Source: Antedon bifida
Lineage: Eukaryota > Echinodermata > Crinoidea > Comatulida > Antedonidae
NCBI GenBank assembly: GCA_963402885.1
Contig: OY727094.1
Location: forward strand, 29,390,501 to 29,454,500
Direction: 5' to 3'
DNA length: 64,000 nt
This document shows, piece by piece, positions 1-61,174 of the stretch. The notes beneath the pieces were generated by a model. The model worked only from the letters and a program-made list of their open reading frames with translations. It was not told the origin of the DNA and made no database searches. The first letter of the stretch is position 1; every line of letters begins with the position of its first letter. Both the position numbers and the translations under genes were made by a program.

Positions 1-105
1 GAGAAAGAATATCGTATGGGATAACTGTGGTGCTTGCGGTGATTGTTTTTAACCAGTTAATCTTCTTGTCATTACCACCCGTCGGCGATCAAATTCCACA
101 AATTG
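1..105 (+). CDS. Cys-loop receptor X1, 3' end of exon 5 (TM2)
   Basis: The window opens inside this exon. Reading from base 3, it encodes the second membrane segment of a nicotinic-type Cys-loop channel (ERISYGITVVLAVIVFNQLI, then a PPVGDQIPQIG linker). It ends with one base of a split Gly codon at a GT donor (GTAATT at 106). Exon 5 ends in the same phase in the other genes here. The Glu before the 0' Arg fits the -1' acidic ring of cation-selective nicotinic receptors. The same sequence recurs at 48116-48220. The rest of the gene lies to the left of the window. Confidence 0.85.
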
Positions 106-180
106 GTAATTATGCTGTATTCCATACCTAAATGCTCGTGTATAAGATGAGGCTCAAGTCAAATTACACTAAGTACAGTA

Positions 181-1809: not shown

Positions 1810-2462
1810 GAAGATTCTTTTTGGCAGTTATTTTGATCAGCACTATCTGTCTCATATATGAATTATGTAAATATCGTCTTTTAAAATTAGTTCTACAAGA
1901 TATTCCCGACTTGTACAAGGATCCTAAAGGATGTATCAGAAATAAAAACCAATCTGAAAATGCGAATACATGTGAAGAAATAGTTGTGAATGTATGCTTA
2001 AAAAAAGAAGAAACCAAACTTTCAAAATCACTTCCGACAAACGAGTCAGTTAAAGAAGAAAACGAAGTGCCCACGGATTCATACATTGTTAAGAATATGT
2101 GCGTAGAAGACAAAGGAAAAGGATGTATCACAAATAAAAACCAATCTGAAAATGCGAACACAAGTGAAGAAACAGAAAACTCAACATCTAAAGTAGAAAA
2201 AGAAGTGCCCACGGGCAAATCCTCAGAGGTCGTTGTGAATGTATGCTTAAAAAAAGAAGAAACCAAACTTTCAAAATCACTTACGACAGAGTCAGTTAAA
2301 GAAGAAAACGAAGTGCCCACGGATTCATACATTGTTAAGAATATATGCGTAGAAGATAAAGAAAAAACAAAAATTGAAAAAATAATTGAATATTCGGACA
2401 TTGCAATGTTCGGATTGTCTGCGCTCACTATTCTTATTACACTAGTGTCATTTTATGTATAG
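1810..2462 (+). CDS. Cys-loop receptor X1, last exon (TM3, cytoplasmic loop, TM4)
   Basis: The exon follows a TTTTCTACCAACAG acceptor and begins by completing the split Gly codon left by exon 5. It encodes TM3 (RFFLAVILISTICLIYELC), a hydrophilic Lys/Glu-rich intracellular loop, TM4 (MFGLSALTILITLVSFYV) and a stop at 2460-2462. The loop holds two tandem copies of a roughly 65-80 residue module (NKNQSENANT, VNVCLKKEETKLSKSL, ESVKEENEVPTDSYIVKN), whereas the X2 paralogue has one. The reading frame is open throughout, so this copy may be functional. Because exons 1-4 lie outside the window, that cannot be confirmed. Assignment rests on position, intron phase and TM layout. Confidence 0.8.
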
Positions 2463-2866
2463 GCCTTTTAGTGATTGCCGAAATAATGAATGATATTTGT
2501 TACACAATTGATCATAACATTAAATGCCTTTAATCTAGAAGATTCCATGTAGATAATATTATATTACCATAGTAATTTCATTTAGATGTTTAATTCAGAT
2601 GTTTAATAATAATTTTCAACAAGTTTGATGTAGACTTATGGAGAGAGCCAATTTATATAACAGAGGCATTTTTAAATTGTCAATATAATGTATTGATTCG
2701 ATTACGCAGAACTAATTTTCTCCTATAAATGTACATTATAATACATATAGAAAGTTATTAGGGGTAAATAATACTTATTTTAAGAAATACAATTGTAATT
2801 AAGTAAGTTAATATGATGTGAATTCTTTGTAATGTTTATTCTAGATATTATTATTGCATACAGTAT
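2463..2866. other. 3' flank of X1
   Basis: AT-rich sequence that closely matches 49809-50225 downstream of X2, so it belongs to the duplicated block. I see no other gene. The match stops at ATTGCATACAGTA, where the next repeat begins in this copy. Confidence 0.7.
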
Positions 2867-3783
2867 TATACAGATATTGCCTGCTTAGAGGTGAAATATA
2901 AGATTTGACATCCCCGAGGGAATGATATTATGTTCGAGGGAATATATATATCCCGAAGCGGCAGCTGAGGGATATATAATTCCCCGAGAACATAATATCA
3001 TCCCGAGGGGATGTTAAATCTTATATTTTACCGATATAAAAGGCGATATCTGTTATATTATATAGCCAAGAACAAGTCTGCTGGGTTGGGTGAAGCTAGG
3101 CTAGGCCTCCTATTCTAGTATTTGTATTGTATGTAAACAAGCCTCCTGCCTAGACACCTTACCTTGCGAAGAATAATATACAGATAATTACTAATTAATG
3201 ATTCCTTGGCAATAAAATATTCACTTAGGCCTAGGTCGTTTAAATTAACAGAAGAATTTCCATCAATAAGCCTATTAATAATAATATTATAATCAGGTAG
3301 GCCGAATAAACAATTCATCGTCTTCTCTTCGAGGAGCCGAATCACCGGATGTTCAGCGCGTACTAGTTACTAGGTTACTACCGTGAGTATTGACCAATCA
3401 CAAACGGTGTTTCATCACATTTAGGGAGGACTAATAACAAATGAGGGCGCTATGTATGCATAGTTTAAATAGTTTAGATGAATAATTTCTTCAAGCAAGC
3501 TGCGTGGTGCAGCGGTAGAAGCGTTGTCTTGCGATGGAGTGACAATTCCACCCAGGTTCAAGATGACTTTTGTTTATTTATCGGCAAACGCGAGTGTTGC
3601 CACACGAAAATTACACAGTCAATATCATCGATCGAAATGACAGGGGACACGATAATTACGCGAAAATTAATCGGTCAATATCATCGTTCTCGAGGATATA
3701 TACGATTTACGATCCTCGCAGCGGTAGTCATGTGACGCAGTTTCAACCAATCACGTTCACGTATTTACATAGGCTATGTAATA
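2867..3783. mobile_element. Foldback plus tRNA-like repeat, copy 1
   Basis: One of three copies (also 28612-29324 and 51494-52437). It starts with an imperfect hairpin at about 2899-3027 whose arms run from TAAGATTTGACATCCCCGAG to its near complement. About 500 bp later comes a tRNA-like stretch (GTGGTGCAGCGGTAGAAGCG as an A-box-like block, GGTTCAAGA as a B-box-like block, near 3505-3570). The end is ACATAGGCTATGTAATATAA. I see no protein and cannot assign a superfamily. It is probably a non-autonomous element. Confidence 0.7.
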
Positions 3784-4440
3784 TAACAAAATATTAACCA
3801 ATCCTAATCAATCCTAAAGTATTGACCAATCATATGGTGTCACCGAATAAATATTTACTCAGAGCAATGTCGTCACCCGACTCCTTGCCATCTATATTTT
3901 TTATAGTAATTCTCATATAATACATTTCCTTTTGTTTTTATATCAATTTATTCAGCAATATAAATATATATCAGTGACTAAACTCCTAAGGAACCCTCCT
4001 TGTGGAGGTGTTCAATCGATGTTTTTAAGCCGTGTTAAAATTAGATTTGTAATATAATTTAATTTTGAGTTCCAAATTTGAATGATTGTAATATTTAATT
4101 GTTTTTCGTTGTTTAATGTAATACAGTATTTTCAAACAAACAGTTTACTATGTAAACATCAACTTGGACATATATTATGATCTATTTTTTACGTCGTTTT
4201 ATTTTAAAGATAGCACAACATCTCTAGACATTCATACTTTTGCGGTTTTTTCACGAATCACGGGGGCCACGCGTGAAGTTAGCAAAATAAAGTATACTGC
4301 AAATATATATAGTAACAACGATCAAATGGGAAATTTTAAAATCAGTATATTATCAAGTCGGGTAAAAATTACATTAGGCCTACATCGGGAGAACTGATGT
4401 TGATAGTCATAGATTGAGATTTTGTTTGAAATCTGCGGTA
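3784..4440. other. Intergenic, no gene seen
   Basis: AT-rich sequence with short open frames only, showing no splice-supported coding pattern. Confidence 0.5.
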
Positions 4441-4622: not shown

Positions 4623-4790
4623 GTTTATTTTTTATTTGCCGTGATGTTTTATTTTTTATTTGCCGTGATGTTTTATTTTCATTCCATTCATTTCATTTCA
4701 TTTCATGTTTTATTTTCTCACATGTATACCTTTACGGTACGAAAAACTATTCAAATCAAAATCGTGTACAATCATTTTGTTCCAACACAG

Positions 4791-4885
4791 GAATTTATCT
4801 CTTGGAACATCACAGATACTGGCGTTGAATGCATACAAATGAAGCAGGACAAAATATGGATACCTGATATTGTCCTTTTACAGAA
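4791..4885 (+). pseudogene. Orphan exon 4 relic of a Cys-loop receptor
   Basis: Encodes EFISWNITDTGVECIQMKQD followed by KIWIPDIVLLQ, matching exon 4 of LGIC-A, 2 and 3. It includes the loop-A WIPD motif and the family's extra Cys. The homology ends in the usual phase before a GT (AA|GTTCAG) but starts 12 nt late, after ACACAG. No matching exons 1-3 or 5 lie nearby before LGIC-2. It is most likely debris of a deleted gene. Confidence 0.75.
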
Positions 4886-6206
4886 GTTCAGGTTGTTAAC
4901 AATAACATAATAAATGTAGTAACAACAACAACAGTAATAATACATTTTTAATTTAAAAACAAAAATTAATTATTTTTTAACTGTGAAAAAGAAAAAGAAA
5001 ACGACATGAAATAAGAAATGAAATACAGTTTATTTCCGGATCATTAAAATGATATATTTTTAGATGAATGAACAATTATTAACACTATTATTATTATTCT
5101 ATATGTATTGGCGTTTATATCACTTGACTTGACACAAGAGTTATCGGAACTATAATCAGTCAATTTCCTGACAGAGATAAGACTGTGTGAAAGTTAAGCA
5201 AGTCATACAACAGGAGATGAATTTCTTATAATAGGTAATTTTATCAATTTAATTAAAATTGTTTAATCAAAATATTGAATACTATACATTCTTTATTCAA
5301 CAATATCCATTCATTACAATATAAAGTAAACATGGTTATGTGGAGATATGTGAGAAACCTGCCCCAACCGAGATTCTAACCCGGAACCTTCTGCTTGATA
5401 TGCAGACGTCCAACCATTTCGACCAGTAGAGTTTTCATGGTATGGTTTAAAAAACGGTGTGCGGCCGTAGTATATTTATTGTCACATACGGTGTCATATA
5501 TATTTATTATATTTTTATCATACAGTCATCTAAATTATTATGATTATTATATTTTATAACAAATAAACTTTGGATCAAAGGTTAAACAAAAGTCATTGGT
5601 GAATAGTAAATAGATAATCACTAGGATTACTCAAAAGATAAATTGATTATTACATTATTAAAGCTGCAACCTTATAGCAAAGTTTATTTCAACGGGTTAT
5701 TCGGAAATATCACGATTTAAACATTGTGCATGTATTGGTATGTTACAAGTGGTAAGTAAAATAATTAACAATCACCTAATCATTCTAATTAGCATGGAAA
5801 TTCGGTGACTACATGAATGAATACTTTAGAAGTTTGCTCAATCCTTTACATGGCTGCTGTGTAGAATCAAAATCTTAGTGTAAGTATAAGTTTTGTTTAT
5901 AGAATGCTGCCTTCAGAAGTAAATTGTAATGATAATGAGTTTATTATTTAATATCAATCAGAAGGTTTCGGATTCGAATCTCGGATTTTTCTCATTCTAA
6001 GATATAATCTTAACCGTTTAAAATTAATAAAATAATAATTGAGTATTGATTGATTTAGTATATCATCGAGCGTCTTAAAGTGTCTATGCTTTCTATATTA
6101 TTTTAATTATAAACGAGTTTTTTATTTTCAATTTATTGTATGTATTCATGTTTTTCCTAAATCATAATTTTAATAATACTGTCGATCGACTATTTTCATA
6201 TTTCAG
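4886..6206. other. Intergenic, upstream of LGIC-2
   Basis: AT-rich with no gene seen. It holds a decayed minus-strand tRNA-like SINE head at about 5361-5437. The segment before 6206 resembles 53600-53911 upstream of LGIC-3. Confidence 0.5.
5361..5437 (-). repeat. Decayed tRNA-like SINE head
   Basis: Reads GCCCCAACCGAGATTCTAAC on the plus strand, which is the complement of the SINE head at 62843-62913. The A-box side is degraded and no SINE body was recognised around it. Confidence 0.6.
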
Positions 6207-6212: not shown

Positions 6213-9200
6213 ATGTATTTGCTATCTCTACTAATTCTTGTTACTGGTAAGTTTTACCATTATCTATTCACAGTTAAATACACTCAATTATTCTACATCT
6301 TTATTATTAACTATTATTAACTAGTGTGTGTGTGTAAATGGCTAATCGTACTGTAATACATGATACTTAAAGACGTATTGTCGCCAAAAAGATGATAATA
6401 AAAATGAGTAAATCAAACTCTTTGAATGTTAAAATTTTAATAAAGTTAGTCGCTTTCGTCGAATAAAATATTGAACGAAAATAATGATTTCGCATTTAAA
6501 ATAACAATACTTGGCTGCTCGTGTTAAAATATTTTCACTTTAAATACCTTATTATGTGACATTAGATTGTTTTTAGTGAGAGCAATAATCTTTAAAAAAT
6601 TACGAAGGATTACCATTTTACCACGGGTTATACTAATATTTTGTTAAAATAATTCTTCTTCAACTTCAGTAAGTTGCGATGCTCAAGTACATCCAAGTAT
6701 GGAGGCTCTACTTATAAAAAATATTTCTGAAATGTACCCTCAACCGCCTACCGCACGACCGGTACTTGATCCAAATACAGCAATTATAATTTCGACTAGT
6801 TTTGGATTGTTTGAATTTTTGGGTCTGGTAAGTGGCATTCATTATACTTTTTGAAATTATAATTCAACACCTGAAATTAGTTAATTTCAATGATCGGCCG
6901 TTTTGTAAAAACAAACTTATCTTCGAATAATACGAAATTAACAGTTTCCAATTCTAGACGAGTATCGAAACTGTCCGGTTGTGGAATATTTATTTTTTTA
7001 TATAACTTATTTTACATTTTCAGTTTCTCAGGCCGTACACAACCATGATTAACTATGCAAACCAGCACCTGAGCCATAAACAAAGTAGACCTATATTACA
7101 ATGAATAGGTAGAGTACATGTGCTGCAGTATGCTTATGTATTGTTAGTATTGTTTGTTTTATTTTTTTATAGGACGACGTTACACAAACCCTTACATTAT
7201 CGGGCGAGTACTCTTTGGTATGTTTACTTTTTTATCATTAATTTTGTTATTAAATGATAGTGACTGGTATAGTGACCAAGCTAACTTGAGTATGATATCT
7301 CTCATTACCACCCACCATTTTATTAAAGTGAATTTCGAATAGGTAAATTATTACGCCGTTTTAGTTTTTAGCTATTACAATGAAATTATTGAGTACAAAA
7401 TATAAAAAAGGACAAAATATAAAAACGGACAATATAACCATGATTAACCGAATAAACGTATTTAAATATATAAAACCTTCAAACGTAACTGTATATGCTA
7501 TATTTTATTCATTTTTAATCTAAATACAGAATTGGAATGACGAATTTATTTCGTGGGACCCGGTACAGACCTCAATTGATTGCCTTCAAATATCAGGAGA
7601 AACGATTTGGACCCCAGCTATTATCCTTCGTCAACAGTGTGTTCAGCTTTCATTACCAACCAACAATAATACCTAATAGTACCAATAATACCAATCATGA
7701 TATAGGCCTAAATTTTAAAGATCATAGTTGGTTTTGGATAACCATTTTACATTTATCTGTAGCTAGTTGTTATTCTGATTATAATTATACATGATAAAAG
7801 TCACACAATCCCTAAATTCTATCAAGTTATTACGTACATTGTGATACATTTTTTCAAAGCGTTTTAAAGATTAATTATTGATACAGTATTAATTATAACC
7901 ATGTTTTCACTATTTTTATATTTTTAATGAAATAGCAAAAATCAGATGTCTCTCACATTAGGGAATTCAGCTGAAGTGTGCTACAATGGCAGCGTGAAGC
8001 TTACATCTAGAGATGTTTTTCAAACAAATTGTCCTTTGGACTTCACGTTTTATCCCGATGATAAACAGACGTGTAAATTAGATTTTTCTTTGACAGAAGA
8101 AAAAAAGAAGCTTGACTTCAATAATGACTTGGACCAAATAAAAATACCTGATAACAGTGAACTTTGGAAAATGAAAGGCATAGAAGTAAAATATGATATG
8201 TCTTCTACTTATTCAACGTTACAGATGTTTCTCAAAGTGCGACGAAGGAACTCTACACTTGTGATGTTTTTAAAACCGTACTTTGTGGGCTGGTATTCAA
8301 TTTGCTTTATGTTCCAGTTGTCTAAAAAAAAACCAAAGAAAAGACTGAAATATGGGATATCTATTTTTGTAGGAGAGAATGTATTCTTGTCTTTAGCATC
8401 CATGGGTGCTCCTCCAACATCTGAATATACATTTACTGTATTAGGTAATGTTATCAATTTAATGTTAACATGTTATTAGTGAAACATTAAGTATGAGTAG
8501 ACCCAAAGAATATAATATCACAAGAATGAGCAATCTTCGGTTTTCGCCGCAGACGTCGGGATGTATATAACTTTTTGTGACGGTCACACTAATCTAAGCC
8601 TGGACCAGTAGACCATGATAAATAAATGTTCTCAACTACATGCTAACATTATGTCGATATTTAATTGTTCGTTTTATACAATTTATTTAGTAAAATAAGT
8701 GCACGTTGTTGTTGACGTGTAACTTGGTAACGAATGGTTGATTTTTGTTGAACCTTTCTTTGTGTACTAAACCTTAAACCTTTCTTTGTGAACTAAACCT
8801 TAAACCTTTCTTTGTGAACTAAACCTTAAACCTTTCTTTGTGAACTAAACCTTAAACCTTTCTTTGTGAACTAAACCTTAAACCTTTCTTTGTGAACTAA
8901 ACCTTAAACCTTTCTTTGTGAACTAAACCTTAAACCTTTCTTTGTGAACTAAACCTTAAACCTTTCTTTGTGAACTAAACCTTAAACCTTTCTTTGTGAA
9001 CTAAACCTTAAACCTTTCTTTGTGAACTAAACCTTAAACCTTTCTTTGTGAACTAAACCTTAAACCTTTCTTTGTGAACTAAACCTTAAACTTTTCTTTG
9101 TGAACTAATTTAGCATGGTGGTAAATTATTGTGAATGTACAATAGTTTTTTAATAAATATTTCTATGAAATTTCATATAATTGCAAAATATATTATCATA

Positions 9201-10629
9201 ATTCTATTTAATGTGACATGTATAATATCTATTTAAATCAAGACTTCATTATTCTGTATACATCCGCTCATGTGAGGGTGGGCACCCATGCTCTTTTAAA
9301 AGTGATACAAATTTCAAATGCAAAAATCGCAGATTGCTCATTCTTCTGATATTATATTCTTTGGTAGGCCTAAATCAGTATTTTAGAATGAAAATGAATG
9401 CATTGTCCCCAAACCATAACAAATAACAATAAAATCAAACTTAACATTTTTTTGGCCAAAAAATGAACTAAAAACCAATAATTTCGCTTGTTAAGAATAA
9501 AAGTAAACATTTAGATAAACCAACAAAAAACCACACTTCTAGAAAATGGGCTTCCGGCCGATTTCTTTTCTTCCACTTTTTGATTAAATTAAATACCGTA
9601 AAACGTCGAAAAGAAGCCCACCCAAGAGTCCTAAATAAAGAAGAAGCCCATGGCTGATTTTTTAGACAAATTCCCTATCAATTATATTATATATTTACAA
9701 AGGAAACAGTCAAAAAGAAGATACAAAATGCAATCAAAGTACCATTCTGAAAACAATAAAATAATTGTATAAAAAATATATGAGGCTTGATTGTTGAGAT
9801 AAGTAAGAGTTGTAAGGTTATTAATATATTGATATGATAACACGAGCATACATTTGTATTCCTTTGACATTCAAATGCAGTCTCGAAAAGAAGCCCATAC
9901 TATCTTGAGAAAATGCCTTCTTTTCGAGATGGGCTTCTTTTTTCGTTCGAGATTTTTTGTGTAACTATTTTTTTTCCAGTGGTACAATATATCTTTAATT
10001 CGTTATTCTTCCTTGTTCAAATAGGACTTGCCGTTATGTTTGTCAACGTTGTTAACATTTGTTGTATCATTGTTGAGTATGGTTTTGATCGTCATCGACA
10101 TGGGCCCCAGATGAAGAAAAGAAGAACTATGTCAAGAAGCGAAAGAACGACAATGAGGAATCAAAGAAACGAGAGAAGGCAGAGAAGGAAAGACATGATA
10201 ATGGCAAAGTTGGCGGCTAACTACATTCAAGATGATGATGATGAGGCCAACGATGATGAAGATGACAACGATGACCACGGCTACGATGTCTCATGTGGCT
10301 CGGACGAAGAACATTTGCAAGACTTTTTGGTGCGTGTTTGGACGAAAGACGATGAAAACCAAGAAGCTGCAAACAGGCAGACGAACCACAACAGAAGTCA
10401 GAGGCAGTCGGGAGCCCAAGAAAGGCCTTTTGAGGTGGTCAGAGACGATGATGTCAATATGCATTTTCCCGGGAGAATACCTTCACCCTTTCTTTTAACA
10501 GTTCAAAAGGGTCTCCTTGGATTCGGCTCTGAGCCCGATGAAGATGATACTGCTATGATTGTTTGGTCTTTTTTAGCTATTTCATTTATATACGTATTGT
10601 TCTTCATTATATTTTTGTTTCATTTTTAA
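6213..10629 (+). CDS. Cys-loop ligand-gated ion channel subunit LGIC-2
   Basis: Six exons by eye: 6213-6246, 6670-6827, 7173-7217, 7530-7636, 7936-8444, 10025-10629, giving 485 aa with every junction in phase. A splice-acceptor-like TTTCAG before the ATG suggests a 5' UTR exon. Domains: signal peptide (MYLLSLLILVTVSCDA); ligand-binding domain with the nicotinic-type RPV motif; Cys-loop C147-C161 with 13 residues between; TM1 about 223-243; TM2 about 252-270; TM3 in exon 6; a long cytoplasmic loop, basic then acidic (DDDDEANDDEDDNDD); TM4 near the C terminus. It differs from nicotinic receptors in several ways: loop A reads WTPA rather than WxPD, loop B lacks Trp, loop C lacks the Cys pair, the TM1-TM2 linker is very basic, and Lys253 falls at 2'. 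Donor 4 is CA|GTGTGT. Closest paralogue here is LGIC-3. Ligand unknown. Confidence 0.8.
8751..9108. repeat. 26-bp minisatellite in LGIC-2 intron 5
   Basis: About 13.8 nearly perfect head-to-tail copies of CTTTCTTTGTGAACTAAACC plus TTAAAC. Only a few substitutions occur, at the two ends of the array. There are no spacers. It lies between the TM2 and TM3 exons, the same intron that holds the VNTR in X1 and X2. Confidence 0.95.
9540..9960. repeat. Repeated GAAAAGAAGCCCA motif in both orientations
   Basis: The motif CGAAAAGAAGCCCA and its complement TGGGCTTCTTTTCG recur several times just before LGIC-2 exon 6. The last pair (about 9885-9950) could form a small hairpin. No further role is evident. 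Confidence 0.5.
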
Positions 10630-11679: not shown

Positions 11680-12618
11680 TAATCATTGATCAAAAATCAA
11701 GTAGGAAATATTTCATCTATCCTAAACGGACAGCTTACATGTTCGATGGGTCAAATTTAAACACAATTTTACTGCAAGGTTGACACGGGACTTTTTTTAT
11801 GTAAATGTACCATAGGACTATAGTTAACACAATTTAAAGCATACTATATCGACTCTCATGCTGTATTGTAATCCTAGGTGTCATTACAGTTAATACACCC
11901 TAACAATCTGAATAGATTACTGCTAATCAAATATTAATGTTTGGATGTGGTAAACATTATAGTTGACAAAATAAACATCATACAAGAGACATATCACCAT
12001 TCCATAAATGCTGGTAATTAATAATCCGATTAAATTACATACCCATTGCATGAATATTGTATGAAAGTAAAGCAGAAATGAAGACCTCTTCACTGTAAAT
12101 ATTAAAATTAAATGTATGGAAACGGTCAATTATTTGTATGAGTCTACATAATACAAATATATGCATAATAATAATATTAACTTAATTCATATTCTAGATT
12201 ATACAGAAGTTTAAATAAGAAATGCCTCTTTATACTGTCAAAACCTCGTATCCCCATTTTTCGCTTAAATTTACTTATTGTATCATTTTTGTTTTTACTC
12301 ATTATACATTTATAAGCTCGAAATATAAATGCATGTAAGAAAACAATTAATGATTTTTCTCCCTGTAAAATTATGGTTTGTGGAGATTGGAGGTTTGAAA
12401 GAACAGCGACGGTATAACATGTTTAGAACTGATACCTCTTGATTCACACTTGTTCCAGAAGATGGTTATGTTGTTAAATAATGAAAACGCATAATATACA
12501 GAATTGAACGGCGCCATCTTCCGTTCCGTGATACAGCACAAGTGTGAATATAGCTTTACATCTAACTCTAATTGTCTCGCTGTTCGAGCTACAGCAAACT
12601 GGTATAACTGGAATAAGT

Positions 12619-12670
12619 ATGCATAGATGGACTACTGTCGTTGTAATCATATTCGTTTTATTTAACTCAG
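12619..12670 (+). pseudogene. Lone signal-peptide exon of an X-type receptor
   Basis: Encodes MHRWTTVVVIIFVLFNS plus one base, then a consensus donor GTAAGT, in the same phase as exon 1 of the intact genes. An almost identical exon lies at 45756-45804. I found no exons 2-5 of matching type before LGIC-A begins at 19237, so this looks like the 5' stub of a broken copy. A very long first intron reaching unrecognised exons cannot be excluded. Confidence 0.65.
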
Positions 12671-13568
12671 GTAAGTTATATTTTTGATAATTGCTTCATA
12701 AAATAATACTGTTTGTATACCGTACAATGAGCCGTACTTCCTTAAATACAATTGGTATTATAAGTGAATAAATAATAGTGTATACGGTAAATCAATGAAC
12801 GACATTTTTACCTGAGTTGTTTCTCATCTCTACAATAATATTTAAAGCGGTAAATGTCAACCAAATTTAAAAGTCTTGAACTGTCAATCATTTATGTGTA
12901 TATATGATTTATAACATTGTACTGTAATTAAGTCTTAAGTAAATTCTAAAGTGATGGTAAGCCTATATTCCAATAATTATTATTCTTAATGATATAATAT
13001 ATTGTGACATTCCAAGTTTCAGTCATTAACATAAGTAATTATTACAAGATTCCGTCCGTATAAACAAGACATGCATGTACGGGCCAAAATTTGTATCGTC
13101 ACTAATGTTTTATTTATTTTTTGTAAACTGTGCAGCCATGCCATTAAACCATTATAGCTTTTATATTATGGTTCAAATTCGATTGGATATTCTGCAAAAG
13201 AACAAGGGGCATATCAATGTGTATTTAGTAACATAAAAGTACATGTATGCTATTTGTACAGAAACACTTGACAGTAGAATGATCTTATCTTTCGTTTGAC
13301 TCTTTATCTTCTATTCATCTCTGTTTGAGAGCTAAAATATTAATTGTGTATTGTATTATCTGCCAGATCATGTTGTATTGCATTAATATTACGTTATATA
13401 AATATAATACAGTTAATATCTCATCAGTCGCTTAATTTACTGTCTATTAAAAACAAAATGACAATGTTTACGTTTACGGTATTGATACAATTTTACACTC
13501 GAATTCCTAATGAGCATAGACACGATCATATTTCAGTAACATGCGTAGATTACCACTACAAACACTAA

Positions 13569-13905
13569 TATGGCCGAGCGGTTAAGGCAGGGGCGCCGTT
13601 TACCGTACCTAAAGAGCCAACAACATCGGCAAGGGTTCGAGGCCGACTCGCTCCTAGTTCTGGTGGTGGAACAAGTCTTCTCGGATAAGGACTATAAACC
13701 GTAGGTCCAGTGTACACAGTCATAACCTGTGTGCACTTTAAAGAACCCAGTTCATTATTCGAAAAGAGTAGGGGGTTACCCCGGTGAACTGGTTCACAAA
13801 ATAGCCCCTGTATCAGGGGGATTACCACCTATCTGATAGGACAGTGATTAATTCACTATTGGTAAATCTGTTTCACTATTGGTAAATCTATTTATATTTT
13901 TGTAT
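13569..13905 (+). mobile_element. tRNA-derived SINE with Leu/Ser-like head
   Basis: The head reads ATGGCCGAGCGGTTAAGGCA (A box) and GGGTTCGAGGCC (B box). A conserved body follows, including GTGTGCACTTTAAAGAACCC and AGTAGGGGGTTACCCCGGTG. A near-identical copy is at 46712-47035 within the second duplicated block, so insertion predates that duplication. The older diverged copy near 16320 lacks it. Confidence 0.85.
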
Positions 13906-18293: not shown

Positions 18294-18358
<65 letters not shown>

Positions 18359-48300: not shown

Positions 48301-49106
48301 TATCATCGTCATCGCCATCGCCATTGTCATCATCATCATGAACCGACAAACAAATGTGGTTGGTCCTCATCGCCATTGTCATCGCCATCACCATCACCAT
48401 AATCATCACCACCATCATCATGAACCGACAAACAAATGTGGTTGGTCGTCATCATCATCGTCATCGCCATCACCATCACCATCATCATCATGAACCGACA
48501 AACAAATGTGGTTGGTCGTCATCGTCATCGCCATCACCATCATCATCATGAACCGACAAACAAATGTGGTTGGTCGTCATCGCCATCGGCATCACCATCA
48601 CCATAAGCATCACCATCATCATCATGAACCGACAAACAAATGTGGTTAGTCGTCATCACCATCACCATTACTATAAACATCACCATCATCATCATCATGA
48701 ACCGACAAACAAATGTGGTTGGTCGTCATCGCCATCGCCATCACCATAATCCTCACCAACATCATCATGAACCGACAAACAGATGTGGTTGGTCGTCATC
48801 GCCATCGGCATCGCCCTCACCATCACCACAATCATCACCATCACAATCATGAACCGACAAACAAATGTGGTTAGTCGTCATCGCCATCGCCATCACCATC
48901 ACCATAATCATCACCATCATCATCATGAACCGACAAACAAATGTGGTTGGTCGTCATGGCCATCGCCATCGCCATCACCATCACCATAATCATCACCATC
49001 ATCATCATGAACCGACAAAAAATGTGTTTGGTCGTCATCTCCATCGATATCGCCATCGCCATCACTATCATCATTTTTATGAACTGACAAACAAATGTGG
49101 TTGGTT
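48301..49106. repeat. CAT/CAC-rich VNTR in the last intron of X2
   Basis: Same unit as 181-1568 but about 0.8 kb long, without the internal duplication. Flanks on both sides match those of the X1 array. Confidence 0.9.
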
Positions 49107-49808
49107 AGGGTATTATATGTTCGACAAGGCAATTTAAATACCATATTTATTGCGTTTCACATGAGTGGAACACATATTATTAGAAGAATCCGTAATCTGT
49201 AATATCGATTGCACAAAAGCCTAATCGTTTATATAATCTTAATTAATATGCAATTACCCGGTTAATTCTAACAACATTAATTAACTAATTACAAAAAGTG
49301 TTAACTTTTATATTATGCTAAATATTTCAATTCTTTTTCTACCAACAGGAAGATTCTTTTTGGCAGTTATTTTGATCAGCACTATCTGTCTCATATATGA
49401 ATTATGTAAATATCGTCTTTTACAATTAGTTCTACAAGATATTCCCGACTTGTACAGGGAGGCTAAAGGATGTATCGGAAATAAAAACCAATCTGAAAAT
49501 GCGAATACGAAGAAATAGAAATCTCAACATCTAAAGTAGAAAAAGGAGTGCCCACGGGCAAATCCTCAGAGGTCGTTGTGAATGTATGCTTAAAAAAAGA
49601 AGAAACCAAACTTTCAAAATCACTTACGACAAACGAGTCAGTTAAAGAAGAAAACGAAGTGCCCACGAATACATACATTGTTAAGAATATATGCGTAGAA
49701 GACAAAGAAAAAATAAAAATTGAAGAAATAATTGAAAACTCGGACATTGTAATGTTCCTATTTTCTGCGGTTGCTATTTTGTCAACACTTTTGTCATTTA
49801 AAATATAG

Positions 49809-50225
49809 GCCTAGACAATTATATTCCTTTTTTGTGCTAGCCGAAATAATGATAAAATGATATTTGTAACAGAATTGATCCTACAATGAAATGCCTTTAA
49901 TCTAGAAGATTCCATGTAGATAATATTATATTACCATAGTAATTTCATTTAGATGTTCAATTCAGATGTTTAATAATAATTTTCAACAAGTTTGATGTAG
50001 ACTTATGGAGAGAGCCAATTTATATAACAGAGGCATTTTTAAATTTTTCAATATAATGTATTGATTCGATTACGCAGAACTAATTTTATCCAAAATGTAA
50101 ATTCTAATACATATAGAAAGTTATTATAATTACTTATTTTAAGAAATACAATTGTAATTAAGTAAGTTAATATAATGTGAATTCTTTTTAATGTTTATTC
50201 TAGATATTATTATTGCATACAGTAT
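49809..50225. other. 3' flank of X2
   Basis: Matches 2463-2866 after X1. No gene seen. Confidence 0.6.
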
Positions 50226-51493
50226 AACTAGTTGTTCTCTCTCTCCGTTGTAGTGCAAAATACCACTTTATTAATATTCATCATCACATATAGGCTAGTA
50301 CTACTACTAATAGATGTTTTTTCCCATATTATTCTTATTTTTCATTATTTTCTTGAAAGTTCTCATAATAATAGTAAATAAAAAGTAAAAATACAATGCA
50401 TATAATAGCTTTATATATGGTCCTACTTTTTAAATATATAGGCCTATTGACATAATACTACTGTATCGTTACATTATACAATAGTATCTACAATAGTATA
50501 TATAATTATGGTTATACAGTAGTACCTGTAGTTCGTATCGTAGTATAGTTACAGTATATCCTCATTGTCGATTGTAAATAATAAAAACAAAATACTATTT
50601 ATTATGTAGGCCGCCCATCATTCACAGACGACCATTTAAAATAACTATTTTAAAACCAGGTAGTCTGCACCATACAAGATCTTACATGAAGATCGAATTA
50701 CACTGTTCCTAAATACTATAAAATGTGTAACTGTCAGTGGGTTAAATCTCTATACTAATCTATATGGTTCACGAACATTAACTTTACTATGATTAAATTC
50801 CGCACGCGTTGCTGGTACATTCCCTTTTTTTTCGAACCTACTAAGTTTGTACCATTATTCGATGTGATGGACTCAATTCCATTTGCTGTAGAGGGCGTAA
50901 ATGCATAATTATTATTGAACTTTGACTGGAAGAAGTAGAGGATGTCAAGGCTAACATGTTGATGCTATAACAACTCAATTAGACAGTTATTAGACCTACC
51001 TATCTGTTTTTAAAAATATTTCTGACTGTCCTTAATTAAATTTGAATAAGGAACTAGGAACTATAGAAACTATTAACCAACTTCACAGTCATCCAACCGA
51101 TATTCGAACCCGGACCTTCTGCTTGATATGAAGATGTCCTAACCATTAGACAACCGTGGGGCTTTCATTGTATAGTTCAAACCTGATTGGATAGCGACTC
51201 TTTAACACTCTCGGCGTGGTACAGCGGAAAAGCATTAGTCCCTTAATTGTACGCACGCGCACCAGAGATCAAATTGATACGCCCTCATCTATCAGTATTT
51301 TTATTCCTTTTCTAAAGCTTAGTGACTATTTATTCACAGTTGAACGACTGTCTGCCAAAAATGAGGGTAAAACTGAGACGATCTATCGAAGACCTACAAA
51401 AAAAAATTCTAAATAATAAAAGTTGTTATTTTAAAAATCGACCGCATTGAATTGGGAAATAAAACAAACATATACTTAGAAAAGGAGACAGGT
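50226..51493. other. Intergenic, absent from the X1 copy
   Basis: About 1.27 kb that lies between the X2 flank and the foldback repeat. In X1 the repeat follows the flank directly, so X1 has lost it or X2 gained it. It holds a decayed minus-strand tRNA-like SINE at about 51093-51310. No gene seen. Confidence 0.55.
51093..51310 (-). mobile_element. Decayed tRNA-like SINE
   Basis: Head on the minus strand at about 51093-51162, then the body shared with 62690-62840 (CTCTCGGCGTGGTACAGCGG, AATTGATACGCCCTCATCTA). It is more diverged than the copies at the window end. Confidence 0.7.
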
Positions 51494-52437
51494 ATTATAC
51501 AGATATTGCCTGCTTAGAGGTGAAATATAAGATTTGACATCCCCGAGGGAATGATATTATGTTCGAGGGAATATATATATCCCGAAGCGGCAGCTGAGGG
51601 ATATATAATTCCCCGAGAACATAATATCATCCCGAGGGGATGTTAAATCTTATATTTCACCGATATAAAAGGCGATATCTGTTATATTATATAGCCAAGA
51701 ACAAGTCTGCTGGGTTGGGTGAAGCTAGGCCTCCTATTCTATAGTATTTGTATTGTATGTAAACAAGCCTCCTGCCTAGACACCTTACCTTGCGAAGAAT
51801 AATATACAGATAATTACTAATTAATGATTCCTTGGCAATAAAATATTCACTTAGGCCTAGGTCGTTTAAATTAACAGAAGAATTTCCATCAATAAGCCTA
51901 TTAATAATAATATTATAATCAGGTAGGCCGAATAAACAATTCATCGTCTTCTCTTCGAGAAGCCGAATCACCGGATGTTCAGCGCGTACTAGTTACTAGG
52001 TTACTACCGTGAGTATTGACCAATCACAAACGGTGTTTCATCACATTTAGGGAGGACTAATAACAAATGAGGGCGCTATGTATGCATAGTTTAAATAGTT
52101 TAGATGAATAATTTCTTGAAGCAACTTCCGTGGCGCAACGGCGGAAGCGTTGTCTTGCGATGGAGTGACAATTCCACCCGAGTTCAAATCCAGTAGATGA
52201 CTTTTGTTTATTTATCGGCGAACGCGAGTGTTGCCACACGAAAATTACACAGTCAATATCATCGAACTCGAGAATGTATATGATTAATGACAGGGGACAC
52301 GATAATTACGCGAAAATTACTCAGTCAATATCATCGTTCTCGAGGATATATACGATTTACGATCCTCGAAGCGACAGTCATGTGACGCAGTTTCAACCAA
52401 TCACGTTCACGTATTTACATAGGCTATGTAATATAAA
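51494..52437. mobile_element. Foldback plus tRNA-like repeat, copy 3
   Basis: Nearly identical to 2867-3783. The hairpin is at about 51522-51660. The tRNA-like stretch near 52125-52195 is better preserved here (TCCGTGGCGCAACGGCGGAA, GAGTTCAAATCC). Confidence 0.75.
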
Positions 52438-53932: not shown

Positions 53933-56900
53933 ATGCCTTTGGTATTCTTACTGACTCTAGCAATTGGTGAGTTATAACATTTAATTCACCGTTATTAAAT
54001 GTATTCAATTAGACAGAATCTGTTGTAGGCTCACAAATGTCTGATCGTGTGTTATGAGGGGGAGGGTGGGGGGCGGAGTTGTGGATTTTCTTTACACAAA
54101 TTGAAAATAATGAAAGAAGTCGCGGTGACTGTATTCACATGTTGATTAATTCGTTTTGACGAAATGACGTGTTCTGTCATGGTTGAGAGTAAAATATCTA
54201 GTCTTCTTTTTGTCTGTTTACCTATACTTTTTTCTTTGTGAGGAAATGCGCTTATTTTGGTAGACTGTATGTCTACTAAAAACCTACAAAACAAATGTTT
54301 TTTTTTCTTCTCCAGTTAGTTCCAATGCCAGGAATATAGTACACCCAAGTAAAGAAGTTCTGCTTATGAAAAATATTTCTGAAACGTATCCTCAACCACC
54401 TATTACACGCCCAGTACTTGATTCAAATACAACTATTTGGATTACGGCTAATTTCAGAGGGTTTGAAGTTCTAGAACTTGTAAGTTTAACTATAACGATA
54501 GAAAACATAATTTTTCTATAAATAATTATATAGACAGAATGTACAGTATGTCGTCTTGTGCGGATGTCAAATGTGTGATTGAAGCGGTGCTATAATACAT
54601 ACTGCATATTCCTTTGTAACTAACTCCACGGGAATGATTTTTAAAAACAAGTTAGTAATTTAGATATTATGATATCTCATCGTAATGTACTTAATATTTG
54701 GAGAATGGTAATATCGCTGAAAATGTTACTTTTTCGTTCATATCCAGTGTAAGTCAAAGACAATAATAATATGCATATCTAGGTATTAAGTGGAAATGCT
54801 TGTTTTAACTATTACTCTTATCTGACAAAGAAAATGTGATATGCCCATATATGGACATGATGATGTCATATCACTACCTTATTTGGGCATATCATTACCA
54901 TATTTGGGCATATCACACTTATTCGTCAATAAGTATTATATTAGCATGGAGAAATAGGATTTATTTCTCTATGGTATTAGTGTTTATTTTAGATATTTCA
55001 AAGCAACAGTGAATCTATATATAAATTTACGTAAGGGCAAAATTCGGTAAATCGCGCGTTACTTCTAGAATGTTTACTCGATGGTATATAAAGTTGGTTA
55101 GAATTTCGGTACTGATTTTAACCACCTGATGTAACCCTGTTTACTAATTAAATTGAGTTAGATAATTAGTTATTGACAATTAAAACGAATTTAAGTTCAA
55201 AGATTTGCCCCAAATAGGATTGTTTTCCGATCGTTGTATACACTGTCTAATGGATGTCCTATTGAAAAATACCTGCACACAATAATACGAGGATGCTTCG
55301 CATTTTCCTATCTCCTCCTACGATAATTGTTTTTAATAGCTGAAAACCGGTTGAACAGCTCGAGTACAGTATCATAATGTTGAAGACAGTAACTGCTATT
55401 GTTATAATACATCTGCTTTTTACTTTCTATAAAATTAAATTCTATTAAATATTAAGGACTATCTGTTAACATACTACTTTAATTCATTTATTACAGAATG
55501 ACGTCACGCACACCCTCCTATTATCTGGCCAGTGTGTTTTAGTGAGTTATTTTTTGTATTATTTTGTTTAATAGAAATATACTTGATCGATTGGACTAAC
55601 TAGATACCGCCGGTAATAATTACTGGATTAAAATCAACTTAGAAATTAGCCTAAATCTTTTGATGGAGAAAAATCATCCAATTCATTTAAACACCAATTT
55701 TTCTTTTACATATTTTGTATATATTTACAGTACGAGTAAATTAAATGTGGAACGATTGTATTATCTCACCATTCCATTGCAATTCAATTACATTTTCAAG
55801 GATTTTATTCGAGGCCCTTATATTTTACAAAAGTAAATACTAATTAATATGTGTTGCATAATGTTTTTTTCTTTTTTCGTGGGAAATAACAACTCATAAA
55901 CAGTATGTATTACCCTAAAGTATTTATTTATTTATGATCAGGCCTATACAAATTGGAGTCTCCTGTATTTGAATTTCGTACGGTTTATCAACTATTAGTT
56001 AATTATTTTATTGTTTGTTGCAGAATTGGACGGACGAATTTATTTCTTGGGACCCGGACGAGACATCAATTGAATGCCTTCAACTATCACAGGAAACAAT
56101 TTGGATCCCGGATATCAAATTACGTCAAAAGTAAATTCAATTTTAATTTCACCTCTAAATAATGAAATACAAACATATGCCTATGTATGATAATATACAA
56201 TACATGTATCTAGTATAATCTATTTTAAAGGACACCTCTAACACTCTTTCACAACAAACTTAACTCCCACTACCACAGTGGTCGCTTTCGGATTCCGACC
56301 TCTCAACCGGTATCTTCTTCTTCCTTCCACAAGCCATTCAACTTTTTAACAACAATTTTATGTAAATTGTGGATCTCATAATTTGTATTGTTTAGATTTT
56401 TGTTAGGTTATATGCATTATCATGCATTTAACCTTATTGATTCTGTCAGAATCTTTATTTATTCTTCCCTTAGCATTATTTTGTCCGTTGTTGAGATCAA
56501 TTTCATCTAGCTACGTCAATTTTTCAGAGTATATTCCTTATGGTCATAGTCTGAGAGATGAGTCCATTTAGTGAACACATTTTACCATTGGTCTTAATAT
56601 GATTTTTGTGTGAGACATATTTTGGTACATCTGAAAACCCAATTCTTAAATGATTCTGGTGATGCGCTTATGGGTCAGAGGTCAATGACCTATTTTTCAT
56701 GTAATTTTTCCAATATCTTTATTTTATGGCACAGTATTTGATGAAGTGCATATATTCAAAGCTGATGAATCATACTACACATTGATTTTCATTAAAAGTC
56801 ATTTGAGTCATTATTTTACAAAATATATGGAATAATCTCATTTTTTCATTTTTTGGGTAAAATTTCATTTTCAATTTCAAATATGCTTTAATTGTATTCA

Positions 56901-59900
56901 AACAACTTTTAAACTATGTGGATGAGTGGATATCAAAAATAAATTTGCGCTACAATTAGAGCTTGTATATAAAAAATACTGATTGTATTCATTTTTGGTA
57001 AAATCGCCAACAAATGCTATCTTGTAAACTACTTGTCGTATAACGCTAAGTCATACATTAAATGAAAGCCAATGATAATAATATTTATATCCATTGTAAT
57101 GGAAGTTTTTGTTATAAACCTATCATAAGTTATCATAACTTTAGAAAATAATGATTGTCATTAATTTTTGGTTGAAATTTACATTAAATTCTATCTCGTG
57201 AACTACTTGTCGTAGAACACTAAATCATACATTAAATAAATGAAAGCCAGTGATAATATTTATATCCATTGTAATGGAGGTTTTTGTTATAAACCTCTCA
57301 TAAGTTATCATAACTTTAGAAAATAATGATTGTCATTAATTTTTGGTTAAATATTACATTAAAAATCATACATATGATAAATTATCTAAACATTTACTGT
57401 AGTAGGCTAGTCAATCTAGCAAAAAAACAGCCCAAAGTGAAACAAAATGCAAACAGAGATTTTTTCTTTTTTAAATGGTCATATATGATGAGGAGATCAA
57501 AATTTGAGCATCACGTCTGTTGGCTTTTTTTTCCCCATTTTGAGTGCTTGATTTCTCTATTAAAGTCAGATTCAGTTAGTTAAATGCACTTACAGTTTTT
57601 TTACGGTATATTTGTCCAATGTTGTATTAGTGTAGCATTTATTATTTATATATTTAGACGGAGCAAACTATCCACGTCTGTTCACTCACTTAGCATTGTT
57701 AATACTTTTTGGCTTCAAATGACTTGGATACAGGTTTTATATAGCCAGTATAGGACCGTTTAGTAATTCCAAAAGTCAAGCACCTCGAAAGTATGCAAAT
57801 TATTAGTACAAGTTATATGAAATATGCAAATTACAGCCTTATGTATCTCGAAAAACGCTAATGACCGATAGAGATATGGCAACTTTTACCTCTTGTACTA
57901 CTAATTTGCATATTTTCGAGGGAAGTAACAAAGGTGTGATTTTGAGAATTACTAACAGTTCTATGCTGGCTATAGAAAACCTGTATCTGAGTCATTTGAG
58001 GCCAAAACAGTCTGTACAGACATTTTAGTTGCATTATATGAAAATATTGAGAAATAGGGTTGAGGGTCAAATGTCATAATTCAATCAAGACAATTTTTGC
58101 GTAAAATGTTTCATTAGAGCGAATATAAATATGTACATTCTGAATCAACTCTGAATTCAAAATGGTTTTCGAGATATGGGAAGACTGTAATTTCACCCCT
58201 AATTTGCCTATTTCATGTAACTTGTACTAATAATTTGCATACTTTCAAGGTGTGTGACAAAGATGTGATTTGGGGAATTACAAAGTATAGTAGTAGAATA
58301 GTACTCTCTCTTTTTTTTCTTATACAATCATATATTTTTTTTAAATATTTTCCATCTTCAATGTGAAGTTTTGTAGTTAGATGCACTTATTTATAGTAAA
58401 CATGCACTTTTATCTAAATTCAGTTATGCATTATTTTTAATTATTAGGCTATATTACAGCTGACAACGGTCGTAACTTCGCTATAATCGTATTCAAAACT
58501 AAATACAAAGTGATTTAGTGACAACTTTCGCAATTGATAATGTTTAAAGCTTCTTTTGTCCAGTATTTATTTAGTGAACTTGCACTGGTATTTAAATTCC
58601 TATTATCCTTACAGCCAACAACTTTGGTATAGGCCCAAGCGTATTCAAAAACTTCAAAACTAAATACAAACAGGATGAATGCTGCGACAATTGTTTTCTT
58701 TTCTGAAAATTGATGTACAAAGGTTGCAACGTCCACAATTGTGAAACTTTTGAACAGATTTTTTATCCTGCGGTTTTCGATGTGATTATCTTTTCACGGT
58801 GCGCAATCAAACATTACACGTAACGCGGTCTATGCGCGATATAACGAAATCACGTTTGTAATCATAACTTCAAAATTGTCAAAATTTATTTTCGATGAAA
58901 TTAGAGTACGTCTCAGGCAATTATTTTAAGCATTTTAAAAATTGCCATGAGTGCGCGCAGATTATTGCACGCGCTCCAGAATAGATTATTCATTTAAAAA
59001 AAAACAAAAATCGATAATTATAAATATTTTGTTCATAATACGTTGTGATTTTATGCAATAGAATATTTTAAAGAAGATTATAGATTAAATGTTACAGACA
59101 CTGCTGACCCAGATGTGACTGAATGTCAGTAGGCCTAGCACACACAGGCCTAGGTTTTAAAGAGACTGCCTAATAACATCCTACAAACAATCAGTCACGT
59201 CGAAGTTGTTTGTAGGCTATTTCTGAATAAGAAGAAAACTAGGCTAGGCCTACAACGGCACTGTATTTATTGTCGTCTTTGACTCGACGGACTCACGCAA
59301 AAACGTTGTTGATAGATGCCATTTCAATCATGTCATTTGGTTGGCCAGAATGCATAATTACCGCGCGGTATTTTCACGAATCTGTTTCTATACTGAGCGG
59401 ATTTCCGCTCACTCCGCGTTCTGTGTAAACGGTCATTAGAAATAACAGATTCTACTTTTTTACGTCCGCTTTCCTTTACCGCTTACCTTTACCGCTCGTC
59501 TGTGTAAATTGGCATTAAAAACCAATTACTGTTATTGATTTTTAATTCCAGGAACGCCAATATGACGAGGACATTTTTTTTCTGAACATTATACAGACAA
59601 AAACTTTGATCATTTTTTATATATATTTTTTAATAATTGTAATTTTGTTTATAGTTATTATAATTCTTATACAATATGCCGTATTAACCATTTTTTGTTT
59701 TATATTTAAACAAAATGAAATAGTATCAGAGGTCTTACATATCGATGGATCTAGTAACAAGGTCCTGCCGAATAATGTTAATAACGTGCTAACTATTGCT
59801 ATTGATTTTTAATTCCAGGAACAGCAATATGACGAGGAACATTATTTTCCTTAACGTATACAGACCAGAACTTTGACCATTTTTTATATATTTTTTTTAA

Positions 59901-61174
59901 TAATTTTAATTTTGTTTATAGTTAATATAATTAAACAATGCGCAGCATTAACCAGTTTTATATTTAAACACAATATGAAATAGTGAGTATCAGAGGTCTT
60001 TTACATCGATGGATCCAGTTGATGTGTGCTACAATGGCAGCGTGAGGTTTACATCTACAAATGTTTTTGAAGCAAATTGTCCTTTGCACTTCAAGTATTA
60101 TCCAAAAGATAAACAGACGTGTAAATTAGATTTTACATTGCCACAACCTGTAGACAAACTTAACTTTCGTTCTTTGGATCAAGAAATAAGAAATATAAAT
60201 GACAACAATGGACTCTGGGCAATAAAAAACATAACAGTAAAAGCAGAGATAGGCCGTGATAGTGATCAATTATTTGCTTATGCATTCTTGGGACTGAATG
60301 TTGATTTGAAACGAAGAAGCAACTTAGCAGGAATATTTTTTGTAAATGCGTATTTTTTTGGTGCATTTTCAATTTGTGGTATGTTCCTGCTTTCGCACAA
60401 AAAAGGGAAGAAAAATAGAAGACTAAAATATGGGATGTCAATTTTCTTAGGAGAGAATATATTCGCAATTTTGCAAACCTTGGGTGTACCTGCAACGGGA
60501 GATGACTTTCCTTTAATGGGTAATTTTATCAATTCAATTAATTTGGTTTTATCAAGATATTTTGATGAGAATACAATAATTTCTCTATTCACCAATGTTC
60601 ATTCTTACGAAAAGGTTATCCAAGAAACCCTAGGAACAGTAACATTTTAAAATAAAATGATAGTAAAACATAAATCAAATTGAAATAAATAATTTTTATT
60701 TATTTTATTTTTATTTATTTTTTTATTTATTTAATATATAATGTATTCAATAGATATTCAATAGTATTTTTTTGTCTTCTGTCTATGAATACTAGATCGT
60801 TCTTTTTTTTTTCTTATCCAATAGGAGCACTCGTTATATGTATCAATATTGTTATAATCTTATCTCTCGTTATTGAATTATTTATTGATCATCATTGGCA
60901 TGAACAAGCTGATAAGGAAACGAAAAAAGATGAAAATGCTGGAGCTAATGAGGACACGAAAAAAGAGGAAAATGCTGAAACTAATGAGGACACGAAGTTA
61001 ATAAATGGTGATGATAAATCGAATTACGCTTCAACATCGAATGCCAGGTTTCAACATACAAAATCGCAATCCTCAAATGAAAAAAAATATATTGATTATT
61101 GTGCAATTGTTGTAATTGCTATTATAATTTTTTTAATATACTTAGCATTTTTTTTAAAAATTAAAAATAACTAG
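53933..61174 (+). CDS. Cys-loop ligand-gated ion channel subunit LGIC-3
   Basis: Six in-phase exons by eye: 53933-53966, 54316-54479, 55497-55541, 56024-56130, 59984-60519, 60825-61174, giving 411 aa. A TTATTTCAG acceptor before the ATG suggests a 5' UTR exon, as in LGIC-2. Layout: signal peptide (MPLVFLLTLAIVSS); ligand-binding domain with RPV and loop A IWIPDIKL; Cys-loop C149-C163; TM1 about 237-256; TM2 about 264-282; TM3 at the start of exon 6; a short loop with two ENAxxNEDTK repeats; TM4 about 384-404. The TM1-TM2 linker is basic (HKKGKKNRR), with Lys265 at 2' and Glu274 at 11', as in LGIC-2. Loop-B Trp and the loop-C Cys pair are absent. Intron 4 is 3.9 kb. The cytoplasmic loop is much shorter than in LGIC-2. 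Ligand unknown. Confidence 0.8.
55014..55389 (+). mobile_element. Helitron-like 5' segment in LGIC-3 intron 2
   Basis: 376 bp matching 24796-25172 and starting at the same TCTATATATAAATTTACG. No CTAG end follows, so it is a 5' fragment. It lies between exons 2 and 3 of LGIC-3. Confidence 0.6.
56131..59529. other. LGIC-3 intron 4, repeats only
   Basis: No exon seen. It contains a direct repeat of about 110 bp (ATCCATTGTAATGGAAGTTT near 57090-57175 and again near 57260-57345). It also has an imperfect inverted repeat (about 57715-57820 against 57890-58010, sharing ATGCAAATTA and TATAGCCAG-type blocks). A second echo pair lies near 58460-58550 and 58610-58700. Confidence 0.55.
59530..60015 (+). 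repeat. Tandem duplication over the LGIC-3 exon 5 acceptor
   Basis: Two copies of roughly 230-280 bp (from GATTTTTAATTCCAGGAAC at about 59538 and 59808). Each ends with GAAATAG, then TATCAGAGGTCTT and the first codons of exon 5. Only the second copy continues into the Cys-loop exon. Confidence 0.8.

Follow-up and report, generated by a model that had tools for sequence, protein, structure and literature searches.

A tandem cluster of Cys-loop receptor genes, apparently both growing and decaying, occupies a stretch of 64,000 bases without N from the crinoid Antedon bifida (contig OY727094.1, positions 29,390,501 to 29,454,500), hereafter the window. Three genes on the + strand (2, A and 3) are complete and open; beside them lie a copy cut by the window edge and open as far as visible (X1), a copy truncated at its 5' end and frameshifted twice (X2), and two isolated exon fragments (Table 1). 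An earlier, sequence-only reading of the window had listed three complete models on one strand, one edge copy, one broken copy and isolated exons, and had seen in them the birth and death of receptor genes; intact genes standing beside truncated, frameshifted and fragment copies bear this out. The genomic part of the explanation favoured here (the models, their family, the broken copies, the unequal ages of the copies and a conversion-like segment) is nearly certain. Taken as a whole, that is, as a decaying and growing tandem cluster together with the functional proposal made below, the reading is probable.

Gene models and family placement

Animal-type spliced genes are present in the window, in which G+C content is 28-37% per 4-kb step; the low G+C and the many TAGGCCTA words, which were left uncounted, give the impression of a marine invertebrate. 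The models were built from three open frames matching the Cys-loop ligand-binding domain (LBD) and from a self-comparison of the window. Genes 2, A and 3 each have six exons and five introns, with phases 1,0,0,2,1 in all of them and no internal stops, and exon 3 (45 bp) and exon 4 (107 bp) have the same length in the three; the conservation of phases and lengths claimed before thus stands, for lengths in exons 3 and 4. An exon 3 of 45 bp and an exon 4 of roughly 110 bp belong to the ancestral nicotinic receptor pattern, on which a literature search yielded no paper. All 15 splice junctions were set by eye as GT-AG, a rule that on its own provides no independent test, and what supports the models is that phases and exon lengths agree, that the frames are open and that Pfam scores increase on splicing. 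In gene A, the LBD match improves from 1.3e-19 for the exon-5 frame to 2.4e-42 for the spliced model, supporting its splicing.

In a Pfam profile search of the three translated models the LBD scored above cut-off in each, as expected from the Cys-loop family to which the sequence-only reading had assigned them. The Cys-loop cysteines, 13 residues apart (C163 and C177 in gene A numbering), are invariant in the three models, and the four-helix transmembrane family PF02932 stands out in gene A alone (6.7e-13). A joint profile of the models aligns to a nicotinic chain through M1-M3, and a hydrophobic M4-like segment closes each protein. A search of solved structures matched 327 sequences with the alignment (E <= 0.001), 238 with gene 2 and 204 with gene 3 (E <= 0.01 for both genes), and the best 60 of each set were nicotinic-type or 5-HT3 chains, save one proton-gated channel chain for gene 2. 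The top solved relatives were alpha-6 for the alignment, alpha-4 for gene 2, and C. elegans des-2 followed by alpha-7 for gene 3, whose best 60 of 204 matches also include the betaine receptor acr-23; gene A alone, represented by its exon-5 frame only, has alpha-7 as its best solved relative (6.9e-20, 158 matched). Among the structure matches was PDB chain 8bx5, listed as 'Acetylcholine receptor', which we take to be Alpo4. By these search rankings, rather than by a tree, the genes are placed as putative divergent subunits of the nicotinic/5-HT3 branch of Cys-loop receptors.

Repeats were also observed within the complete genes. Intron 5 of gene 2 holds a 26-bp minisatellite (8751-9108, 13.8 copies, 99% matches), and the cytoplasmic loop of gene A (22590-22700) consists in part of telomere-like AACCCT/GACCCT repeats encoding a tract rich in N-P-D-P. 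In gene 3, the last part of intron 4 holds a duplication of ~0.24 kb (59524-59755 vs 59791-60019, 82%), through which the beginning of exon 5 occurs a second time, as an orphan copy shortly before the true exon.

Table 1. Receptor genes, receptor remnants, copied blocks and repeats in the window (positions count from its first base).
Feature	Position	Strand	Details
Gene 2	6213-10629	+	exons 6213-6246, 6670-6827, 7173-7217, 7530-7636, 7936-8444, 10025-10629; 485 aa; Pfam LBD 1.2e-25
Gene A	19237-22901	+	exons 19237-19306, 19570-19733, 20030-20074, 20638-20744, 21701-22242, 22375-22901; 484 aa; Pfam LBD 2.4e-42, TM domain 6.7e-13
Gene 3	53933-61174	+	exons 53933-53966, 54316-54479, 55497-55541, 56024-56130, 59984-60519, 60825-61174; 411 aa; Pfam LBD 1.2e-22
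X1, exon 5 (M2), 3' end only, cut off at the window edge	1-105	+	profile match 6-104, 35.9 bits; no difference from X2 over the 102 bp compared, starting at base 3
X1, exon 6 (M3, cytoplasmic loop with internal repeat, M4)	1810-2462	+	open to its stop
Orphan exon-4 fragment, A/X type	4785-4887	+	70-72% aa identity to gene A exon 4; profile match 4785-4883, 53.6 bits
Orphan fragment, end of 2/3-type exon 5 into intron 5	5208-5317	+	78% DNA identity to gene 3 60493-60608
X2, 5'-truncated exon 5 (loop C, M1, M2), frameshift in M1	47943-48220	+	profile matches 47919-48219, 46.6 and 54.6 bits
X2, exon 6 with 196-bp deletion (frameshift) relative to X1	49349-49808	+	comparison with X1
Putative gene-conversion tract common with gene 3, coding part	7970-8086	+	silent difference 0.045 vs 0.46 elsewhere
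Flanking block, copy alpha (X-5' of the sequence-only reading)	12256-14896	+	no receptor exon found
Flanking block, diverged copy beta, upstream of gene A	15722-16892	+	pieces 67-92% identical to alpha and gamma
Flanking block, copy gamma, directly adjoining the broken X2 exon 5	45242-47942	+	self-comparison
Block upstream of gene A	16815-18403	+	copied at 61407-64000; 90% over 1167 columns
Copy of the block preceding gene A, containing tRNA-derived repeats and running off the window end	61407-64000	+	self-comparison
14.2-kb insertion upstream of X2, two palindromic units in tandem, inverted ends matching	31032-45241		flanks match an uninterrupted site at ~12246/12256
tRNA-Asp-like sequences, unusual anticodon ATC	5360-5432, 62843-62914, 63452-63523, 63816-63887		ARAGORN, 4 called
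Dispersed repeat, up to 0.95 kb, three copies	2863-3786, 28609-29328, 51492-52436		90-97% identical

Remnants of further copies

Remnants were sought with exon profiles made from genes 2, A and 3 (one for exon 2, one for exons 3-4 together, one for each half of exon 5 and one for the M3 part of exon 6), which left out exon 1 and the loop-M4 part and recover the three source genes by construction. The scan covered all six frames and was controlled with five windows shuffled in two-base blocks, whose best matches reached 8.9-11.5 bits depending on the profile. With the M3 profile, X2 scored just above noise (12.3 bits) and X1 at noise level (9.9 bits); the M3 parts of X1 and X2 were matched by tblastn with the exon-6 frame of gene A (1e-6 and 8e-6, respectively). 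If X1 is whole, its exons 1-5 would be expected immediately to the left of base 1.

X2 carries three lesions: the 5' truncation, the frameshift in M1 and the 196-bp frameshifting deletion in exon 6. Its start was placed at the end of a copied flanking block (14896 matches 47942), so that it begins in the middle of exon 5, and the profile scan did not find the Cys-loop half of this exon. The fragment combining the end of a 2/3-type exon 5 with intron runs into a sequence like the intron of gene 3 and is therefore of genomic rather than retro-transcribed origin. In exon 6 of X1 and X2, 22 non-silent and 3 silent codon changes were counted among 151 codons compared, as expected without constraint on at least one of the copies; here and in the other selection counts, codons containing a stop or gap had been removed beforehand.

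Much of intron 5 is filled in X1 (271-1538) and X2 (48302-49105) by a minisatellite of ~70-82 bp (CATCACCATCATCATCATGAACCGACAAACAAATGTGGTTGG...), whose copy number differs between the two. Around M4 and the stop, X1 and X2 (2346-2545 vs about 49690-49910) are only 81-88% identical, with flanks at 95-99%; this low-identity patch is possibly a conversion patch from a third X copy.

No profile match rose above the shuffled best at 10.7-19.2 kb or 23-47.9 kb, and on the - strand a single one did so, with the M3 profile (57337-57378, 10.5 bits vs a shuffled best of 10.1), which is taken as chance. Pfam found nothing at 10.6-24.6 kb, a result of little weight as it covered two of the three frames and missed that of gene A exon 5. 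No neighbouring gene of another family was recognised within the 64 kb, and among viral contigs 43 stretches fitted the alignment pattern, none of them a relative.

Gene conversion and selection in genes 2 and 3

Over windows of 30 codons, genes 2 and 3 differ at silent sites by 0.28-0.61, yet by only 0.06-0.15 in three windows at the Cys-loop. A 39-codon segment located there holds 1.0 silent difference in 22.3 sites, compared with 81.75 in 177.5 elsewhere (Fisher 1.2e-4). This segment was picked after being seen and the Fisher value is post hoc; a scan-wide shuffle served as guard, and none of 1000 codon-order shuffles contained any window as low. As silent divergence (dS) in the segment amounts to 1.45 between genes A and 2 and 1.21 between A and 3, silent constraint is not the cause of the identity of genes 2 and 3, and recent copying of ~120-160 bp between them by gene conversion would be the simplest explanation. 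Positive selection within the tract was considered and dropped: 13.0 non-silent differences in 94.7 sites against 1.0 silent in 22.3 is not significant (hand arithmetic, ~0.2). A literature search limited to titles and abstract openings, with limited coverage and thus no proof of absence, found no paper devoted to gene conversion among invertebrate tandem nicotinic receptors.

The ratio of non-silent to silent divergence (dN/dS) in exons 1-4 of genes 2 and 3 is 0.28 (0.16-0.46), while the self-comparison (matches of at least 150 bp) pairs the two genes in exons 2 and 5 only, evidencing purifying selection in both lineages. Identity is 32% from loop B to before M1 vs 67% in exons 2-4, and dN/dS of the ligand-loop part is 0.98 (0.44-2.18).

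Flanking blocks and duplication history

The sequence-only reading had counted X-5' (copy alpha in Table 1) as a receptor coding piece, an assignment that found no support: the exon-profile scan showed no receptor exon inside this block, which is a flanking repeat. Pfam, run on the three + frames of 45.2-48.1 kb, gave only a chance match (E 0.035), a weak result as the X2 remnant lying within was also missed. Since a diverged copy precedes gene A, the block would suit an old 5' flank of A/X-type genes. The copy of the separate block that precedes gene A extends to the final base of the window, where 18403 matches 64000 (98% over 56 bp), and a further A-type gene would accordingly be expected on the + strand, beginning roughly 0.8 kb past the right edge.

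Repeated duplication of one block had also been proposed. Several segments were truly copied, which upholds the copying itself, but the copies are of very different ages. With gaps excluded, divergence is ~1-5% between X1 and X2 segments, 3-6% between flanking blocks and 6% in the block that precedes gene A. Genes 2 and 3, in contrast, stand at a silent distance of ~0.58 overall and 0.73 in exons 2-4, and gene A at more than 1 overall from both. Silent distances of ~0.58-0.73 against ~1-7% between the copies mark the receptor types as old and the segment copies seen here as young. This unequal divergence of genes 2/3 and of the X and flank copies rules out one simple block duplication, and the history would be one of layered copying plus gene conversion rather than of a single repeated block.

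Ligand pocket, pore and proposed function

Residues were compared with fragments of the solved alpha-4, alpha-6 and alpha-7 chains, the pore numbering being our own, by alignment. The paired loop C cysteines are absent in A, 2, 3 and X, so that none shows the YxCC loop C of alpha subunits. In gene A, loops B and D still have their tryptophans and loop C one tyrosine, and the position of the loop A tyrosine is occupied by L, R and R in A, 2 and 3, respectively. Genes 2 and 3 lack both cage tryptophans (loops B and D); X does not have these parts in the window. At the inner mouth of the pore, X keeps the -1' glutamate, gene A has no aligned residue there (G precedes R0'), and genes 2 and 3 have basic residues at -1', preceded by lysines, with K at 2'; Pro-Ala at the M1-M2 link is absent from the alignment of A, 2, 3 and X. 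The epithet 'orphan' used in the sequence-only reading is backed by the pocket residues (both tryptophans gone in 2 and 3, paired cysteines gone in A, 2, 3 and X) in a sense limited to sequence.

Segmental duplication enlarges the cluster, ectopic gene conversion makes it partly uniform, and deletion, frameshift and truncation remove copies from it. Two subunit types would coexist in it, an A/X type with part of the ligand cage and a 2/3 type with no cage tryptophans and a basic inner pore mouth. The proteins would act as heteromeric, non-cholinergic channel subunits, those of 2/3 type as non-binding partners altering permeation. This functional part, with non-cholinergic heteromers in which 2/3-type subunits bind no ligand, is put forward tentatively as a possible reading of the residues, and the receptors may have a sensory or modulatory role. 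An extended version appears doubtful: the 2/3 type would represent a third permeation class (no cation-selecting glutamate and no anion-selecting Pro-Ala, a polybasic M1-M2 link, K at the pore-facing 2' position, no cage tryptophans), kept beside the A/X type as a co-evolving set that exchanges Cys-loop sequence by conversion, and would set or block permeation in heteromers gated by A/X subunits.

Comparison with known receptor expansions

In the literature on tandem arrays with pseudogenes, the nicotinic case found was that of Jiao et al. 2019 (PMC6896357). This work reported 99-217 nicotinic genes in five bivalves, with tandem arrays and degenerate members; in the oyster, 33 of 132 genes are of alpha type, 13 of those with complete principal binding sites, and 44 of the 132 are intronless and 34 more have 1-2 introns (PMC6896357). 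The mollusc and annelid expansions share with the present cluster the tandem arrays, the stepwise lineage-specific duplication and the degenerate fragments, as well as the many members without a full acetylcholine site and some with an LBD but no recognised NTM domain; they differ in that expanded mollusc genes tend to be intronless, in contrast to the five fixed-phase introns of genes 2, A and 3 (PMC6896357). As tandem, degenerate and mostly non-alpha nicotinic genes are described in that source, a cluster of orphan members is of a known kind.

Alpo4 and other orphan receptors of Alvinella (PMC10338036) are, like the present genes, nicotinic-like orphans without the vicinal cysteines of loop C, yet Alpo4 is reported to retain the aromatic ligand residues and a pore consistent with cation selectivity, whereas genes 2 and 3 have lost the tryptophans and the -1' acid. 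The octopus chemotactile receptors (PMC11526382) are likewise nicotinic-derived and lineage-expanded, those of octopus being no longer gated by acetylcholine; they are described as nonselective cation channels, in contrast to the basic pore mouth of genes 2 and 3, a comparison made by description. The chloride channels of Lymnaea and Schistosoma (PMC4055736) are also nicotinic-branch subunits lacking the M1-M2 glutamate, but carry Pro-Ala where genes 2 and 3 have basic residues and gene A a glycine beside R0'.

The cluster is, then, a good local example of gene birth and death and not a new kind of system; new here are the Cys-loop conversion segment, the basic pore mouth combined with lost tryptophans in genes 2 and 3, and the 14.2-kb palindromic element. 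Because the multi-exon structure has been kept, 64 kb suffice to read intact genes together with exon-sized remains, a truncated copy, duplicated flanks and a conversion tract. Two ideas become testable in it, namely that conversion spreads Cys-loop sequence between subunits and what conductance a basic-mouthed pore of nicotinic type has.

Weighing of alternative explanations

Several observations weigh against the reading preferred here. PF02932 reaches 18.3 bits in gene 2, under the cut-off of 28.1, and gave no match in the spliced model of gene 3 in Pfam; a 19-residue hydropathy scan puts M2 and the short signal segment no higher than 1.5 in either gene, and M1 likewise in gene 2. The junctions of genes 2, A and 3 were placed by eye, and the genes are predictions from sequence. 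Exon 5 of genes 2 and 3 shows a dN/dS of 0.95 (0.6-1.4), a value raised in part by the conversion segment, which reduces silent distance in this exon, and relaxed constraint on the exon is possible. This last value, together with the clearly broken state of X2 and the two fragments next to them, would also suit complete genes that are themselves decayed or decaying, still open through chance and recent loss and without a functional product; this is quite unlikely in view of 15 of 15 junctions usable as modelled, three open frames of 411-485 codons, and the low dN/dS of exons 1-4 (0.28) at a dS of about 0.7-0.8. X1 and X2 stretches differ by ~1-5%, which lies within the heterozygosity usual in marine invertebrates, so their similarity and that of the flanks might be thought an artefact of assembly, with two haplotypes joined end to end. 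The window has no N, and the gene next after X1 is gene 2 but the one next after X2 is gene 3, an old paralogue of it, where haplotypes should share neighbours; an artefact is thus highly improbable.

Regarding function, the nearness of the best solved relatives (alpha-7 for the exon-5 frame of gene A, alpha-6, alpha-4, and des-2 then alpha-7) and the loop B and D tryptophans and loop C tyrosine retained by gene A would fit ordinary acetylcholine-gated nicotinic subunits, but with the paired loop C cysteines missing from A, 2, 3 and X, the loop A tyrosine replaced by L, R and R, and the tryptophans gone in 2 and 3, this is very improbable. Subunits of acetylcholine-gated chloride channels, as in Lymnaea and Schistosoma, would account for basic residues in place of the M1-M2 glutamate and for K at 2' in the 2/3 type; the absence of the Pro-Ala that defines such channels (PMC4055736) and of both cage tryptophans makes this improbable as well. 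A closer parallel is offered by contact chemoreceptors derived from the nicotinic family, such as the octopus chemotactile receptors, for which diversifying selection in the pocket has been reported (PMC11526382): here too are tandem copies, lost acetylcholine residues and a fast ligand-loop region (32% vs 67% identity in genes 2/3). The dN/dS of that region (0.98, 0.44-2.18) is nevertheless not above 1, and the likeness to the octopus receptors is one of description, so that a chemoreceptor cluster is considered rather unlikely.

Insertion element and other repeats

The two units of the 14.2-kb insertion upstream of X2 (~6.9 and ~7.3 kb) are 95% identical outside gaps. The first is a palindrome with 3.4-kb arms at 95%, and the same inverted sequence stands at the ends of the insertion, which looks like a putative giant fold-back type transposable element. 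Three frames of the first palindromic unit contained no significant Pfam domain (best E 0.078), and 26 bases of the insertion end had no match in viral contigs. By eye, the short spacer between the units resembles the target site.

The tRNA-Asp-like sequences, three with Rfam scores of 57.9 bits and one of 32.1, sit in repeated, partly inverted segments and look like a candidate tRNA-derived family of short interspersed elements (SINE); a 22-base piece had no match in viral contigs. A related repeat was observed at 51093-51306. For the dispersed repeat, a 26-base piece had no match in prokaryote genome contigs, and the repeat holds a stretch that resembles, by eye, the A- and B-boxes of tRNA.

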